Of a stretch of 64,000 nt of DNA, positions 53,983 to 61,452 are shown piece by piece (the first letter of the stretch is position 1; each line of letters begins with the position of its first letter). Origin of the DNA: Stappia stellulata (GTDB taxonomy: Bacteria > Pseudomonadota > Alphaproteobacteria > Rhizobiales > Stappiaceae). Made by a program: the position numbers and the translations under genes. The notes below the pieces were generated by a model. The model searched no databases. It was given only the letters and a program-made list of their open reading frames with translations, and had not been told where the DNA came from. The DNA lies in the NCBI RefSeq assembly GCF_020176715.1, contig NZ_JAIVMF010000001.1:372001-436000 (forward strand), in the 5' to 3' direction.

Positions 53983-55458
53983 CTATTTCCCTGCAATCGC
54001 CAGGATCGCCTCGATATCCATGCAGGCTTCCAGATGCGCGGCAAGCGCATCCAGCGTCGCGTCGATGTCGCTGTCGTAGCCGAGCGACGATCCGGCGCCG
54101 AGGGTCTTCAGGAATCCGGCGCGGAAATCGTCCGAGGTGAAAAGCCCGTGCAGATAGGTGCCGGAAATCCGGCCATTTGCGGAGATTGCACCGTCCGGGT
54201 GGTCTGGACCGTCACCAGACGTCACATGCGCGAAGGGACGCGCGCAATCCGCCCCTTGCGTCCGCCCGATATGGATCTCGTAGCCGGAAAGCGCCGCGCC
54301 GCTCGGCGCATGCCGGCCGGACACCTCGACAAGCCGCTTGTCGGGGGTCAGCACGGTCTCGACATCGAGCAGGCCCAGTCCTTCCACGGTTCCGGCCCGC
54401 CCCTCGATGCCATCGGGATCGGAAATGGTCCGGCCCAGCATCTGGTAGCCGCCGCAGATGCCGACGACCCGCCCGCCCCGCCGGACATGGGCTGAGAGAT
54501 CGATGTCCCATCCTTGCGCGCGAAAGAAGGCGAGATCCCCGACCGTCGACTTCGACCCCGGCAGCAGCACGACATCGGCATCGCCCGGCAAGGGATCGCC
54601 CGGCTGCACCAGCGTGAGCGACACGCCCGGCTCCAGCCGCAAGGGGTCGAGATCGTCGAAATTGGCGATCCGGCTGATCACCGGCACGACGATCTTCACC
54701 TCGCCCTTGCCCGTTCCGTCTTCCAGCCCCAGCGCGTCCTCGGCCGGCAGCTTGCGGGCGTCTGCAAACCACGGCACCACGCCGAGTGACGCCCAGCCGG
54801 TGCGCCGGGCGATCTCGGCAACCCCGCCGTCAAACAGGGACACATCGCCCCGGAAGCGATTGACGAAAAACGCCTTGATGCGTCTGCGCTCGTCGTCGGG
54901 AAGGATCGTATGCGTGCCGACGAGCGAGGCAATCACCCCGCCCCGGTCGATATCGCCGCAGAGCGCGACGGGAATGTCGGCGGCTTCCGCAAATCCCATG
55001 TTGGCGATATCGCCGGCCCTGAGATTGATCTCGGCGGGAGAGCCCGCCCCCTCGACCAGCACGAGGTCCGCCCCCTCGCCGATCCGGTTGAAACTCTCCA
55101 GCACCTTCGGCAGAAGCTCCGCCTTGCGGCTTCCGTATTCGCGCGCGCGCATGGTGCCGGCGCGTTTGCCCTGAACGATCACCTGCGCGCCGACATCGGT
55201 TTCCGGCTTCAGCAGGACCGGGTTCATATGCACCGTGAGCGGCACGCGCGCCCCAAGCGCCTGCAGCGCCTGCGCCCGGCCGATCTCGCCGCCGTCGGCG
55301 GTCACGGCGGCGTTGTTCGACATGTTCTGCGGCTTGAACGGGCGCACCTTCAGCCCCCGATTGGCGAACAGCCGACAAAGACCGGCCACGATCAGGCTCT
55401 TGCCGACATTGGAGCCGGTGCCCTGGATCATCAGGGCGGGCGCGCGTTTCCTGCTCAC
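53983..55458 (-). CDS. cobQ: Adenosylcobyric acid synthase
   Basis: Glutamine-dependent amidation of adenosylcobyrinate a,c-diamide at four side chains; 491 residues. The N-terminal dethiobiotin-synthase-like ATPase half has [20 protein letters not shown] and [14 protein letters not shown]. The C-terminal glutamine amidotransferase half has the nucleophile Cys in [11 protein letters not shown] and the partner His in GTYLHGLF. The GTG start at 55458 follows AGGA and overlaps the preceding small gene (GTGA). It is the last cob gene of the riboswitch-led operon. Confidence 0.96.
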
Positions 55459-55757
55459 GTGCGATCCTGTTTTTCCGCCAGCGCGCCATAGGGGCGGAAC
55501 TCGTCCGGCACGGGCAGCCGCGTCAGATGCAGTTCGAGCGCCAGGCGGATCGTCGGGCGCACCGCGAAGAGGATCGAGCCGATCAAAAACAGCCATGTGC
55601 CCGCGAACAACAGGCTATCGTAGAAGAAAAAAACGCTGCCGACGATGAAGAAGACGGCTGCCAGGAAATCCACCAGCGTGCGCGCCAGCTCGTAGCGGCG
55701 CACCAGCTCGGCGTGATCGGGCGACGCGCGGCGAAGGTCGGAACTGAAGAACTTCAT
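55455..55757 (-). CDS. YrhK-like small membrane protein within the cob operon
   Basis: 100 residues with two hydrophobic segments ([20 protein letters not shown] and [18 protein letters not shown]) preceded by YELARTL, the pattern of the YrhK domain. Function unknown. It is 47 bp downstream of cobO and its stop overlaps the cobQ start, so it is certainly co-expressed with both. Such proteins are not part of the described B12 pathway. Confidence 0.78.
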
Positions 55758-55804: not shown

Positions 55805-56437
55805 TTAAAACTCGATCCCCTCCTGCGGCTTCACGCCGGAGCGGAAGGGGTGCTTGATCTGGGTCATCTCGGTCACCAGGTCGGCGGCCTCGATCAGTTC
55901 GTCCTTGGCGTTGCGGCCGGTGATGACGACATGGACGTCCTCGGGCTTTTCGTCGCGCAGGAAGGTCACCACCTCGTCGATCGGCAGGTAGTCGTAGCGC
56001 AGCACGATGTTCAATTCGTCACACAGCACCAGGCGATACTCGCGCGAGCGGATCATGTCCTTGGCGGCTTCCCAGGCCTGACGCGCGGCCTCGATGTCGC
56101 GCTGGCGATCCTGGGTTTCCCAGGTGAAGCCCTCGCCCATCCGCTTGATGGTGACGAGATCGGAGAAGCGCTCCAGCGCCATGCGCTCGCCGGTCTCGAT
56201 CCGTCCCTTGACGAATTGCACGACCGCGACCTTGTGGCCATGGCCGAGCGAGCGGAACACCATGCCGAAGCCCGCCGTCGACTTGCCCTTGCCCTTGCCG
56301 GTGTGGACGATCAGCAGACCCTTCTCGATGGTCTTGGTCGCCATGATCTTGTCGCGCGCCGCCTTCTTCTTGCGCATCTTCTCCGCGTGGCGGGCGTTCA
56401 GTTCCTCTTCGGTCATTTCGGCTTTCTTGTCGCTCAC
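55805..56437 (-). CDS. cobO: Cob(I)yrinic acid a,c-diamide adenosyltransferase
   Basis: Adds the 5'-deoxyadenosyl upper ligand to corrin cobalt; 210 residues. The N-terminal HAEKMRKKKAARDKIMATK is followed by the P-loop VHTGKGKGKSTAGFGM, then the Walker B-like LVLCDELNIVLRYDYL and the C-terminal IKHPFRSGVKPQEGIEF. The GTG start at 56437 overlaps the cobN stop by four bases and has GGGGAG upstream. The same 13-nt stretch CAAGGGGAGACGA precedes both cobO and cobN. Confidence 0.95.
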   Translation of the reverse strand: MSDKKAEMTEEELNARHAEKMRKKKAARDKIMATKTIEKGLLIVHTGKGKGKSTAGFGMVFRSLGHGHKVAVVQFVKGRIETGERMALERFSDLVTIKRMGEGFTWETQDRQRDIEAARQAWEAAKDMIRSREYRLVLCDELNIVLRYDYLPIDEVVTFLRDEKPEDVHVVITGRNAKDELIEAADLVTEMTQIKHPFRSGVKPQEGIEF

Positions 56438-59400
56438 CCGATCGTCTCCCCTTGTTGTGTCGTCAGCGCCGCGCGCGTGGAATTGCGCCGGGGCGTCCAC
56501 AGTCCGCGCTCCACCGCCTCGCGGAAGCGCGCCTCAATTTCCTCAAGCGCCTTCGGATTGGCCTCGGCGAGAAAGTCCCGCACGGCCTCGTCATCCAGAT
56601 AGGCCTCATAGAGCTGGTCGAAGTGATGGTCGCCGACCGCATGGGTCGTCGCCGCGAAGGCAAAGAGATAATCGACCGTCGCGGCGATCTCGAAGGCACC
56701 CTTGTAGCCGTGGCGCATGACGCCGGCGATCCACTTCGGATTGGCGGCGCGCCCGCGCACCACCCGGCCGATCTCTTCCGACAGCGTGCGGATAACCGGG
56801 CGTTCGGGACGCGAATGGTCGTTGTGGTAGATTTTCGGCGCGGCACCTTTCAGCGTTTCCACCGTCGCCGCCAGTCCGCCCTCGAACTGGTAGTAGTCGT
56901 CGCTGTCGAGGAGGTCGTGCTCGCGGTTGTCCTGATTGTGCAAGACCGCGTCGACCTGCGAGAGCCGTTCCTCCAGCGCGCCGCGCGCCGCATCGCCCTG
57001 CACCCCGCCGCCATAGGCGTAACCGCCCCAGGCAAGGAACGCGTCGGCGAAATCGGAGCGCTCGGACCACACGCCCTCGTCGATAAGCGCCTGAAGGCCC
57101 GCGCCATAGGCTCCGGGCTTCGAGCCGAACACACGGTATGCGGCCGTGCGCGCGGCCCGGTCTTCGGGTTCACCTGCCGCGATCAGTCTCTGTGTCTCCG
57201 CCCGCACCCGGTCGGCCAGCGGATTGGCATCCGCCGGTTCCTCAAGTGCGGCAACGGCCGCGACGGCCGACTGGAACAGATCGATCTGATGCGGGAAGGC
57301 ATCGCGGAAAAAGCCGGAGATCCGAAGCGTCACATCGATGCGCGGCCGTCCGAGCTCCGACAGCGACAGGATATCGAAGCCGGTCACGCGGCCCGACCCG
57401 GGCTCCCATTTGGGGCGCGTGCCGATCAGCGCCAGCGCCTGCGCCACGTCATCGCCGCCGGTGCGCATGTTGGCCGTGCCCCAGCAGGTCAGCACCACGG
57501 CTTGCGGATACTCGCCCTCGTCCTGGAAATGCCGCTCCACAAGGCGCTCCGCGCTCGCCGCGCCGATCTTCCAGGAGGTCTGGGTGGGGACGGCGCGCAC
57601 GTCGACGGAATAGAAGTTGCGGCCCGTCGGCAGCACGTCCGGCCGCCCGCGTGTCGGCGCGCCCGAGGGGCCGGGCGGCACGAAGCGTCCGCCGAGCGCA
57701 TCGAGCACACCGCGCATCTCGCCCTCACCGGAGGCAATGACCGCCGGGGCGATACGGCCCTCGATCTCGGCGAGAACCGCGCACGTCGCGGTCCAGCCTT
57801 CGGGCGCCTCGCCGCGTGCAATTACACCGGCCGCCAACAGTTCCAGCCGCTCCACCGTATCGCCGGCACTGCGCCAGGGCGCGTCGGAGACACGGGCCAG
57901 CTCATCAGGTCGCGGCCCCTGCCACGTCGCCTCGAAGGCGCAATCGAGCGGGTCGAAGCCGTCGCTGTCTTTCGTCATCCCGGACGGAGCGTCAGCGGAG
58001 ATCCGGGATCGGGGTGCCATCGGACCCTCGTTGTCTTCCGGCTCTCCGATCCCGGCTCGCGCGTCGCTTGGCCGGGATGACGCGGAAGCAAGCCCGAGAT
58101 CCCGCGCCAGGGCGCGGGTGATCCCGGCGTTTGCCTCCCCCTCGCCGCGCGGCACGCGCACCATCGCCGACAGGAGATCGGTCAGAAGCCGCCCCTCGGG
58201 TGCCGCACCGAGCACATGAAGCCCGTCGCGGATCTGAAGTTCCTTGAGGTCGCAGAGATGGGCGTCGAGCCGCGCCAGACGGGTTTCCTCGTCCATCTCG
58301 TCGGTAAGGCCGATGTCGCGATCCAGTCCATGCCGTGTCGCGGTTTCCAGGATGTCGCGCGTCAGCGCCTTGAGGCGGCGCGGATCGACGCCCTGCGCCA
58401 GATAATATTCGTCGAGAAGCACCTCGAGCTCCTGCGACACGCCGTGGCTCTCGGCCCGCGTCAGCGGCGGCGTCAGGTGATCGACAATGACGGCTGAATT
58501 GCGTCGTTTGGCCTGCGCACCCTCGCCCGGATCGTTGACGATGAAGGGATAGATATTCGGCACGGGACCGAGAACGGCTTCGGGGAAACAGTCTTGCGAC
58601 AGCGCCAGCGCCTTTCCCGGCAGCCATTCGAGATTGCCGTGCTTGCCCAGATGCACGACCGCATGAACGCCAAGGATCTCGCGCAGCCAGATGTAGAAGG
58701 CGAAATAGTGATGCGGCGGCACCAGATCCGGATCGTGGTAGGTTTCCTTGGGATCGATGTTGTAGCCGCGCGCGGGCTGGATGCCGACGACGGCATTGCC
58801 GAACTGCGTGATCGCCAGACGAAACGCCCCGTCCTCGACATGCGGATCGGCTTCGGGCGCGCCCCAGCGCCCGGTCACCGCATCGCGCACCGCCTCCGGC
58901 AGGCGCTCGTAGTGTTTCGCATAGTCTTCAAGCGCAAGCGCCGCGCCGCCGTGGCGTGCGCGGCGATCCTCCAGCGCATTGGTCGGACCGGAGCTGATCG
59001 CAGCCATCAGCGCGGCGGAATCCTGCGGCAGGCCGGACACGGCGTAGCCCGCGTCTTCCAATGCCTTCAGCACCGCGACGCAGGAGGCGGGCGTATCGAG
59101 CCCGACGCCATTGGCGAGCCGCCCGTCCTCGTTCGGATAGTTCGCGAGGATCAGCGCCAGCTTCTTTTCCGCCGGCGGCACGGTGCGAAGTAAGGCCATG
59201 CGCGCGGCAAGCTCGGCGACGAAGTCGATCCGGTCCGCCTTCGGCACGAAACGCACCGGCGCCGACTGCGTGAGCGGATCCCGCTCGCCCTGTTCCTTGA
59301 AGGAGACGGCGCGGGTGGTGAGGCGCCCGTCGATTTCGGGCAAGACCACATGCATCGCCAGATCGCGGATCGAAAGCCCCTGATCGGCGGATTGCCAGCC

Positions 59401-60303
59401 CTCTTGCGAGGACGAGGAAAAAATCACCTGAAGCACCGGCGCGCCCGGCGTGTCGAGCGGCGTCGGCTGATGGGCAACACCTGCCTTGGAGACGGCAAAG
59501 GCGGTCGCGTTGAGCACCACAGCAGGTGCGGCCTCCTCGAACAATGAGGCGAGCACGGCGGCCGACTCGGCATCCTTCAGCGAGGCGACGAAGACCGGCA
59601 GCGGGTTCAGCCCGCGCGCGGCAAGGGCGTTCGCGAGCGCTTCAACCGGTTCGGTCGCGGCACTTTGCATCAGCGCCCGGTAGAAGACGATGGCCGCCAC
59701 CGGCGCATCCGGGTCGCGCCATTGCGCTTTCAGATCGGCGAGCGAGGCCGCCGCCTGTCCGGGTTGGAACAGGCCAGCGCGCGGCAAGGCGCGCGGCGGG
59801 TCCGGCTCGGGCGTTCCGTCGAGCAGGTGCCGGGCAAAGCCGAGCAGATTGGCGAGATTGTCGGCCCCGCCATCGGCGCAATAGCGCCAGAGCCGCTGGA
59901 CCGTCTCGATATCGAGCGTGGAGCGGGCGGCAAGCTCCGCGTCCCAACGGTCGTCGCCCGGCATCACGGCGAGCTTCACGCCATAGCCGTTCGCCAGTCC
60001 GCCGAGCCGCTCAAGCCCGTAGGGCCAGTATTCCGCCCCGCCCAGAAGCCGCAGGATCACCAGTCGCGATCCCTGCAGCGTCCGCTCTGCATAAAGATCG
60101 ACCGAATAGGGGTGCGACAGCGCCAAAAGGCTTGCGAGCCGCACCGAGGGCGCGGCTTCGCCCAGACGACGCACGGCGCCGGCAAGCGAGGCAAGCTCCG
60201 TGTCGGCGGCCGACAGAAAGACGACATCGGCGGGCGTCTGTTCAAGGTCGACCGCCTCGTCGCCCTCATCGATGCGGCCGCTGCGTCCCGCCAGGATATG
60301 CAT
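56434..60303 (-). CDS. cobN: Cobaltochelatase subunit CobN, with an in-frame palindromic insert
   Basis: The large subunit of the ATP-dependent cobalt chelatase (with CobS/CobT, not in this window), inserting cobalt into hydrogenobyrinate a,c-diamide. 1289 residues. CobN motifs: [33 protein letters not shown] (in parts), [36 protein letters not shown] and [19 protein letters not shown]. Between ALARDLGL and GFDPLDC about 40 residues (roughly 741-777) are encoded by a long inverted repeat that keeps the frame; without it the length would be near 1250, the usual size. The ATG at 60303 follows GGGGAG. It is downstream of cobW by 39 bp and coupled to cobO. Confidence 0.95.
   Translation of the reverse strand: [1289 protein letters not shown]
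57973..58082. repeat. Long palindromic repeat element inside cobN
   Basis: The left arm starts CGTCATCCCGGACGGAGCG and ends GATCCGGGATCGG (57973-58012). The right arm starts CCGATCCCGGCTCG and ends GGCCGGGATGACG (58046-58082). The arms are about 40 and 37 nt, imperfectly complementary, with a loop of about 33 nt. The ends CGTCATCCCGG / CCGGGATGACG match exactly. The sequence style is that of dispersed intergenic repeats of alphaproteobacteria. No second copy was noticed in this window. Confidence 0.85.
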
Positions 60304-60342
60304 GTCGTCTCCCCTTGCTGCGAGCAATCGCCTACGTGTCGA

Positions 60343-61452
60343 TCAGGCCGCCAGCGCGTCGGTGAGGATCGCGCGGGCCCGGCCGAGGTCGAAGCCGGCA
60401 AGACCGATCACGACGAGTTGGCCCGTGCCGCGCGCATCGCGGGCAAACCAGGTTTCGACACGCGGGCCGACCGCCTGCACCATTGCAGGTGCCGGCTTGC
60501 AGTCGACCGCGACCGCGCCCTTGATCCTGAGCACGCCGGGGATCGCCATCGCCGCCTCGACGCGGGCCTTCAAATCGGCCAGCGAGGCAATCCCCGCAAG
60601 CGCCACGACATGGCTTTCGAAGGCGTCGTGATCATGATCGTGGTGGTGATGGTCGTGGTCGTGGTCATCATCATGGTCATGGTCATGGTCATGATGGTCG
60701 TGCTGCGCCTCGTGGTGGCTCTTGCGGCCGTCCATGTCGTCTTCCGCGGCACTGCCGCGTCCAAGCAGAACGTCGGCGGAAAGCACGCCCTTTTCCGCCG
60801 TGACGATCTCCACCGCCGGGCGCAGGCGCGCCGCAACGCGGGCGCGCACCGTCTCAAGGGCGGCGGCGTCGACGAGATCGGCCTTGTTCAGCACCACAAG
60901 ATCGGCACAGGCGAGCTGGTCCTCGAAGAGTTCCTCGACCGGGCTGTCGTGATCGAGAGAGTCGTCCGCCGCGCGTTGGGCCGCGACCGCCGCCTCGTCG
61001 CTCGCAACCCGTCCTTCCGCAACGGCGGCGGTGTCGACGACCGTGACGACGGCATCGACCGTCACCCGGGTCTTGACCGACGGCCAGGAAAACGCGCGCA
61101 CCAGCGGCTGCGGCAGCGCCAGGCCCGACGTCTCGATGACGATGTGGTCGGGCGCCTCGTCGCGGGCGATCAGCATTTCCATGGTGGGCAGGAAATCGTC
61201 GGCGACCGTGCAGCAGATACAGCCGTTGGTCAGCTCCACCACATCCTCCGCCGCGCAATCGGGATCGGCGCAGCCGTCGACCAGCGAGCCGTCGAAGCCC
61301 ATGTCGCCGAACTCGTTGACGATCAGCGCGATGCGCTTGCCCTTGGCCTCGCGCAGGAGGTTGGACAGAAGCGTGGTCTTTCCGGCGCCCAGAAAGCCGG
61401 TGATGATCGTGGCGGGAATTTTCGGCTTCGGCGCGTGAGGGGACGCGGTCAT
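60343..61452 (-). CDS. cobW: CobW-family G3E GTPase with His-rich metal-binding stretch
   Basis: A putative cobalt chaperone for cobaltochelatase; 369 residues. Walker A is [17 protein letters not shown], with [11 protein letters not shown], the metal-binding CxCC motif in [14 protein letters not shown], a Walker B-like ETSGLALP, and the guanine-specifying NKAD. Between about residues 245 and 276 there is a run made almost wholly of His and Asp (coded near 60624-60720). Then comes the C-terminal CobW_C domain ([11 protein letters not shown]). Its ATG overlaps the cobU stop (ATGA). Placement directly before cobN supports cobalt delivery. Confidence 0.94.
   Translation of the reverse strand: [369 protein letters not shown]

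Follow-up and report, generated by a model that had tools for sequence, protein, structure and literature searches.

A CGTC-tagged palindromic repeat carried in frame in cobN of Stappia stellulata, and palindromic inserts recurring at two sites of CobN

CobN, the large subunit of cobaltochelatase, acts in aerobic B12 synthesis, and the question raised by the locus studied here is how its gene came to carry a long palindrome within its reading frame and whether such an insertion is a single event. In the 64,000-nucleotide stretch of Stappia stellulata DNA which was analyzed (hereafter, the window), cobN extends from 56434 to 60327 on the minus strand and codes for 1297 residues when read from a TTG codon, with a likely ATG start at 60303 (the M of MHILAGRSGR). 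It is flanked, on the same strand, by cobW (60343-61452; TIGR02475, 467.8 bits) and by the gene of a cob(I)yrinic acid a,c-diamide adenosyltransferase (55805-56500; PRK05986 and TIGR00708, both above cut-off), with cobQ, coding for cobyric acid synthase, located farther along (53983-55596, minus strand; TIGR00313 and PRK00784, both above cut-off). The only other CobN homolog found in this genome (G000) is BchH, which is present in full (L258, 2750-6508; PRK13405, 2041 bits) and suggests bacteriochlorophyll synthesis.

An in-frame palindromic dimer in cobN

The palindrome is an inverted-repeat element of 110 bp (57973-58082, minus strand) formed by two CGTC-tagged REP-like units arranged head to head. 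In the coding orientation, a first unit of 37 nt (58046-58082), which is an exact match to the pattern used for the repeat family, is followed by a spacer of 34 nt (58012-58045) and by a second unit of 39 nt (57973-58011), all three on the minus strand. Both units start with CGTC and continue with ATCCCGG...CCGGGAT. By sequence, their stems are of 8 bp each (ATCCCGGC/GCCGGGAT and ATCCCGGA/TCCGGGAT), with 14 and 17 nt separating the stem halves of the two units, and they are followed by CG(G), i.e., by a tail which is not CCA. Relative to the empty site of the closest available cobN, that of genome G077 (the loci L151 and L172 were also compared), the net insertion amounts to 126 bp or 42 codons (57964-58089, minus strand; hand-derived coordinates), that is, the element with 9 and 7 bp of flank.

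The arms of the element, CGTCATCCCGG (57973-57983) and CCGGGATGACG (58072-58082), are the sole exact copies in the window, and when one mismatch is allowed an 11-base arm finds 3 matches for 4.08 expected, which is within chance. Folding of the element gave z = -5.0 as RNA with its flanks and z = -4.4 as DNA without them, and in neither case did any of 200 shuffles fold equally well. Its ungapped stem score of 11.5 (shuffle maximum, 10) is below the threshold of 14 used throughout, because the arms are bulged. The first-pass annotation had described a palindrome read through in frame at this position with the rest of CobN intact, and both statements hold: the arms are exact, the fold is beyond that of shuffles, the minus-strand frame of cobN runs open across the element without a stop, and the protein matches TIGR02257 over its full length (1588.6 bits for a cut-off of 822). 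The element codes for approximately residues 749-785 of the TTG-start ORF (hand arithmetic), which correspond to the residues 741-777 initially given if numbering starts from the likely ATG at 60303. The element has three stop-free frames out of six, one of them being in the coding orientation (SSRPSDARAGIGEPEDNEGPMAPRSRISADAPSGMT). A pseudogene or an assembly error was rejected on the basis of the open frame, the full-length profile score and the occurrence of the same insert in G085, another genome of the genus.

The closest solved sequence to this CobN is 9uk9 ("Cobaltochelatase subunit CobN"), another solved CobN being 7c6o, and comparison of the insert peptide with solved proteins revealed no resemblance at E up to 1. 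An Rfam search of positions 56400-60400 returned nothing at gathering scores, and a known RNA family was set aside on this basis. A role as promoter or terminator was also discarded: no promoter-like site was found, and the one terminator-like site (0.3 expected) is on the strand opposite cobN. Likewise, carriage of the element by a plasmid or a phage was set aside, as no match was obtained in plasmid and phage sequence collections.

The dispersed repeat and its classification

That the element belongs to a dispersed repeat, as had been proposed, is borne out by its own genome, in which exact-pattern units and a further 77 matches (E of 10 or less) were merged into 45 places, a hand-compiled set which omits weak matches overlapping listed places and includes one 18-bp match with E = 1. 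Twenty-four of these places are 129-142 bp long, which is the size of a dimer. Using the exact pattern, 14 units were found, the cobN pair included, for none with the reversed-pattern control. One 34-base unit variant, CGTCATCCCGGCCGAATGCAATGAGAGCCGGGAT, is letter-identical at 7 places of the genome and present in four of the relatives searched, which suggests recent spread or constraint.

An alignment of 20 copies showed that the same hairpins form, with 96.5% of cells pairing, helices of 7 and 8 pairs, CGTC outside the unit stems and a short inner helix which leaves an end loop of four columns. In this alignment, 28 cells are changed on both sides for a shuffled mean of 9.6, and for this count as well as for the covariation score no shuffle and no slid control did as well; of the five covariation measures, two (pairs with both-side change and further pair types) were not above shuffles. 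In order to place the copies relative to genes, ORFs spanning each of the 45 places were defined from stop to stop, with 40 codons beyond the element on both sides. Codon-position GC, judged by eye, was of the coding type on both flanks only at cobN (C2:350773 being borderline), and a Pfam scan of the remaining spanning ORFs with a length of 180 aa or more (17 ORFs at 15 places) gave no match, a scan by which genes that are short or belong to no Pfam family may be missed. Because only cobN appears coding-like and the other spanning ORFs have no Pfam match, one of the 45 places, cobN itself, is assigned to a recognized gene. No Y1 transposase (PF01797) was detected in the genome by a search which was positive in 5 of 14 control genomes, in agreement with the lack of linked transposase published for CGTC repeats (main text of PMC3733652).

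REPs tagged by CGTC or GTAG, and their head-to-head dimers, have been described by Di Nocera et al. (2013; PMC3733652). According to the main text of this study, CGTC repeats are found mostly in free-living hosts, among which alphaproteobacteria predominate; they are mostly intergenic, with an 8-9 bp stem and no linked transposase, and families 1-4 possess a 4-5 bp loop and a 3-bp tail which is mostly CCA. Intragenic in-frame copies were reported there as dimers or groups coding for 20-30 residues, with one same-site pair in recB of two Xanthomonas species, and the Rickettsia elements RPE-4 and RPE-6 were placed in the CGTC super-family. The element in cobN shares with these repeats the unpaired CGTC end tag, the 8-bp stems, the genome-repeated head-to-head dimers, the alphaproteobacterial host, the mostly intergenic location with some copies in frame in genes and the absence of a linked transposase. 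It differs by its tail, CG(G) instead of CCA, which is not decisive because the published tail is CCA in "most" cases only (PMC3733652). It was filed under the CGTC super-family and assigned to none of its four families.

The cobN insertion had been regarded as a case independent of the in-frame palindromes of Rickettsia. This view could not be maintained, because in-gene CGTC repeats, as well as their kinship with two Rickettsia RPEs in one super-family that is predominantly alphaproteobacterial, are already on record in the main text of PMC3733652. Rickettsia RPEs are similarly in-frame palindromes within conserved enzymes, their kinship being drawn from this source only; the differences are that the present host belongs to a free-living group, that another gene is concerned and that one protein spot receives several unrelated element classes. 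ERIC and Correia elements, whose fusions have been reviewed along with those of RPEs (Delihas, PMC2229807), are also small non-autonomous elements read through in genes, but they represent other families, and the portion of this review drawn on here describes no recurrent single landing spot for them. The same review reports activity, with a changed substrate affinity, for a guanylate kinase bearing an RPE. What appears to be new is thus the recurrent landing site in CobN rather than the residence of CGTC repeats in genes, which PMC3733652 has already described: its main text contains no mention of cob genes or of a chelatase, and in the openly licensed literature no publication was found that deals with palindromes within cobN or with a spot of this gene where they land recurrently.

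Filled, empty and half sites among CobN proteins

The inserted segment was expected to be absent from close relatives, which proved correct for most of them and incorrect for some of the same genus. The nearest relative by cobN, G077 (L149, 95.4% nt identity), has an empty site, EAFDPLDC following directly after DLGL; this genome (85% complete) keeps two exact-pattern units elsewhere. G085 (L172, 85.9% for cobN), however, carries the orthologous dimer, with alignable spacer and flanks, and two members of the genus carry half of it: G076 (L152) has the second unit only, a state accounted for by the in-frame loss of 69 bp between two copies of ATCCCGG, and G082 (L153) has the first unit only. 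In G086 (L150, 93.8%), the sister of G076, the site is empty but for one extra codon. A history with one gain fails because the nearest relative is empty while the more distant G085 has the insert, and exact loss or allele exchange would be needed for G077. Identity profiles revealed no clear tract, and the transfer of a short element-bearing cobN tract between G000 and G076 was rejected, since no tract of clearly raised identity surrounds the site. Alignment of intact insert-bearing genes shows an open frame that is retained throughout, and the six CGTC inserts checked all use one and the same reading frame. The query's family also includes two genomes whose cobN is broken by stops or frame breaks (L185 in G003 and L180 in G002).

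The position occupied by the element, termed site A, lies between the ARDLGL and FDPLDC motifs. A second landing spot, site B, is found near residue 200 (approximately 59701-59781, minus strand; hand-derived coordinates) and is empty in this genome. Among 80 CobN loci not chosen for inserts, 12 have a segment of 56-90 residues between the two motifs of site A, for 13-25 in the others. Eleven of these long segments have a stem score of at least 14, and the twelfth (L056, score 13) appears to be a mosaic of two half elements. Their classes are unlike that of the query, consisting of ATCTCCCCC...GGGGGGAGAT types and CCCCTCCCCAACCCCTCCCC types, and their hosts are Hoeflea, Rhizobium, Sinorhizobium, Phyllobacterium and further Rhizobiales. 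The ATCTCCCCC...GGGGGGAGAT palindromes, which may correspond to RIME and related rhizobial palindromes, sit at this very spot in rhizobial CobN with a sequence unlike that of the element in the window. Counted as inserts of at least 10 residues, the 80 loci contain 13 at site A, 12 of which belong to a recognized class, and 5 at site B.

In the query's family (inferred to be Stappiaceae), a CobN match was obtained in 84 of 87 genomes, and at least 16 of the 84 have 36 or more extra nucleotides at site A (G002, with its broken gene, among them), 52 genomes having been read in sequence and the other 32 judged from unbroken or partial matches. Recognizable palindromic units of the CGTC, CTTCTCCCC or CCCCCCTTGTGGGGG types are present in eleven of these 16, and the other five hold non-palindromic sequence, which probably represents decayed inserts. 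A conserved segment devoid of any palindrome, which would have argued against an insertion, was not encountered at this position in the CobNs compared, yet these five proteins do hold extra sequence of non-palindromic nature. In a family rich in the rhizobial palindrome, CobN was matched in 105 of 131 genomes, and the matches break at site A and near residue 200.

For an overall count, 194 CobN stretches including the query were assembled, 4 being omitted as short or broken (L180, L181, L184, and L185) and 11 as duplicates, and, with Stappia sp. WLB 29 as the reference, inserts were counted from a length of 10 residues upward, the two protein ends being set aside. In the 179 distinct CobNs, site A accounts for 43 inserts, site B for 22 and three further places for 5, the 43 in 179 not being a prevalence because the sample is enriched for inserts (30 of the 34 additionally fetched stretches were selected since a match broke at a spot). 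Site B is filled in rhizobia, for instance at L237, L235, L245, L246, and L067. A stem score of at least 14 is reached by 30 of 43 inserts at A, 13 of 22 at B and 1 of 5 elsewhere, and by 1 of 150 random windows of insert-free CobN genes taken as control. Five loci fall below this threshold although they hold recognizable units (L152, L153, L173, L174, and L056), and seven site-A inserts are without any palindrome by stem score (5 to 7.5). Judging from their sequences, inserts at the landing spots appear to be mostly palindromes of about four classes, a number which leans also on reading by eye because the loose class patterns overlap (rows with two labels and one with three).

On a FastTree gene tree built with insert columns removed, presence and absence require a minimum of 28 changes at site A and 15 at site B, counts that mix gains and losses; the distinct element classes found at A by themselves require several separate gains there. 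The first-pass annotation had missed that the same spot receives unrelated palindromes in other genomes. About 25 residues downstream of site A, the cobN of Tropicimonas sediminicola (L058) has a 33-residue insert with a long GC-rich palindrome (site D).

Probable tolerance of the inserts, conserved arms and rival explanations

The best reading of these data, and probably the right one, is that hairpin repeats have been repeatedly tolerated at permissive points of CobN. A non-autonomous CGTC-tagged REP-like dimer would have inserted, with the frame kept, at the point of CobN bounded by DLGL and FDPLDC, in a common ancestor of the query and G085. It may have survived because extra residues are tolerated here, probably in an exposed loop, as suggested by the length variation at site A, and also because, in this orientation, one of three frames is stop-free. 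Having taken other palindrome classes in the family and in rhizobia, site A and the site near residue 200 would constitute permissive landing spots, at which inserts would turn over: one unit may be left after an internal deletion, the palindromic character may be lost by decay, and close species may differ in whether they have the insert at all. The repeat itself would be selfish or passively spread. Tolerance would account for the finding of different classes, junctions and lengths at the same two spots. The insert, its repeat family, the frame, the recurrence, the classes and the half copies are observed directly, whereas the exposed loop, a lack of effect on the enzyme, the direction in which each lineage changed and the manner in which the element moved are inferred.

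Synonymously unchanging arms are, however, not expected of a purely tolerated insert, and tolerance leaves them unexplained. Comparison of the query with L172 gives one difference in the 76 bases of the units, located in the first unit, and 7 in the 34 bases of the spacer, for 14.2% over the gene; gene windows varying as little represent 6.8% for the first unit and 1.1% for the second. None of 22 codons in the units is synonymously changed vs. 352 of 1128 elsewhere (P = 2.7e-4). In another shared element, found in the Rhizobium loci L070, L071, and L076, the corresponding values are 0 of 30-31 codons vs. about 0.30 (P = 1.5e-5 to 2.7e-5 per pair, the pairs not being independent), with a spacer varying at 35 of 89 bases, and spacers change at or above the mean rate of the gene. 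The second unit is identical in cobN of G000 and G085 over 39 bases and of G076 over the 37 shared bases. A search of 7 genomes allowing up to 3 mismatches gave no identical copy of this unit elsewhere, the closest one, with 1 mismatch, being in G085, which disfavors conversion for the query. Conversion from other copies of G000 was rejected, since no own-genome donor is identical to either unit (31/37 for the first and 36/39 for the second at best). In rhizobia, conversion between copies is possible, the number of exact cores ranging from 71 to 166 in six rhizobial genomes. For 15 of 17 pairs, identity is higher in the stems than outside them, these pairs not being independent and their non-stem part including conserved flanks. 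The freezing of the arms is not absolute, since several bases have changed in the first unit of L153.

Such arms would be accounted for if the hairpin had been recruited at the nucleic-acid level, through mRNA stability or pausing or as a protein-binding DNA site, with selection keeping its arms. The lack of synonymous change in both sets of elements, the drifting spacers, the second unit shared by three species without an identical copy elsewhere and the higher stem identity all point in this direction. Nevertheless, the insert is not needed, because the nearest relatives are without it and two others have half of it; in addition, plain windows leave the first unit ordinary, the first unit of L153 has changed, conversion could keep arms alike in those rhizobia with many similar copies, and the independent orthologous sets are few. 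A nucleic-acid role is unlikely. Similarly doubtful is a composite reading in which the two CobN spots would be docking points, where unrelated palindromes are kept and their arms come under nucleic-acid-level selection once coding. If this were true, convergent acquisition from mobile repeats would have given many alphaproteobacteria a B12 gene with a coding hairpin.

The recurrence could alternatively reflect a DNA target preference of the elements rather than a tolerance of the protein, as independent inserts all fall in the interval bounded by the two motifs and are separated there by a few codons. This is quite unlikely, because the classes involved, about four in number, are unrelated and the junctions vary, with variable non-homologous residues ahead of the element; furthermore, the second spot of the same protein behaves alike, and no target-site duplication is visible by eye in the query. 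As for a removal or skipping of the insert before the mature protein is formed, by RNA processing or ribosome bypass, the strong hairpin in the message might suggest it, but the intact insert-bearing genes keep an open frame, the Rfam search of 56400-60400 gave no match at gathering scores, and removal is unnecessary, which makes this explanation hardly credible. Repeated tolerance at permissive points, as proposed above, is the reading retained here, with the frozen arms as the point of greatest interest.

While in-frame palindromic repeats have mostly been described as scattered cases in unrelated genes, one enzyme with two recurrent spots, several element classes and at least two bacterial families amounts to a natural replicated experiment, which can show protein tolerance vs. 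element choice, the decay of inserts and the later keeping of the hairpin. Two permissive insertion points in the large subunit of cobaltochelatase would also be useful for tagging and engineering CobN.

In the query genome, three ATCTCCCCCTCA(G/C)GGGGGGAGAT palindromes about 275 bp apart form a small rhizobial-type array (C2:237467-238038). In plasmids, the rhizobial palindrome was found in 185 records at 999 places. Gene residence looks rare for this class because, among the 60 plasmid records listed, 51 are annotated and the best match is in an annotated gene in one of these 51, with a gene table that is incomplete. The gene concerned is ftsY of Rhizobium sp. NLR16a (L259, 1501-1545; NZ_CP072868.1), whose product is perhaps another permissive host protein.
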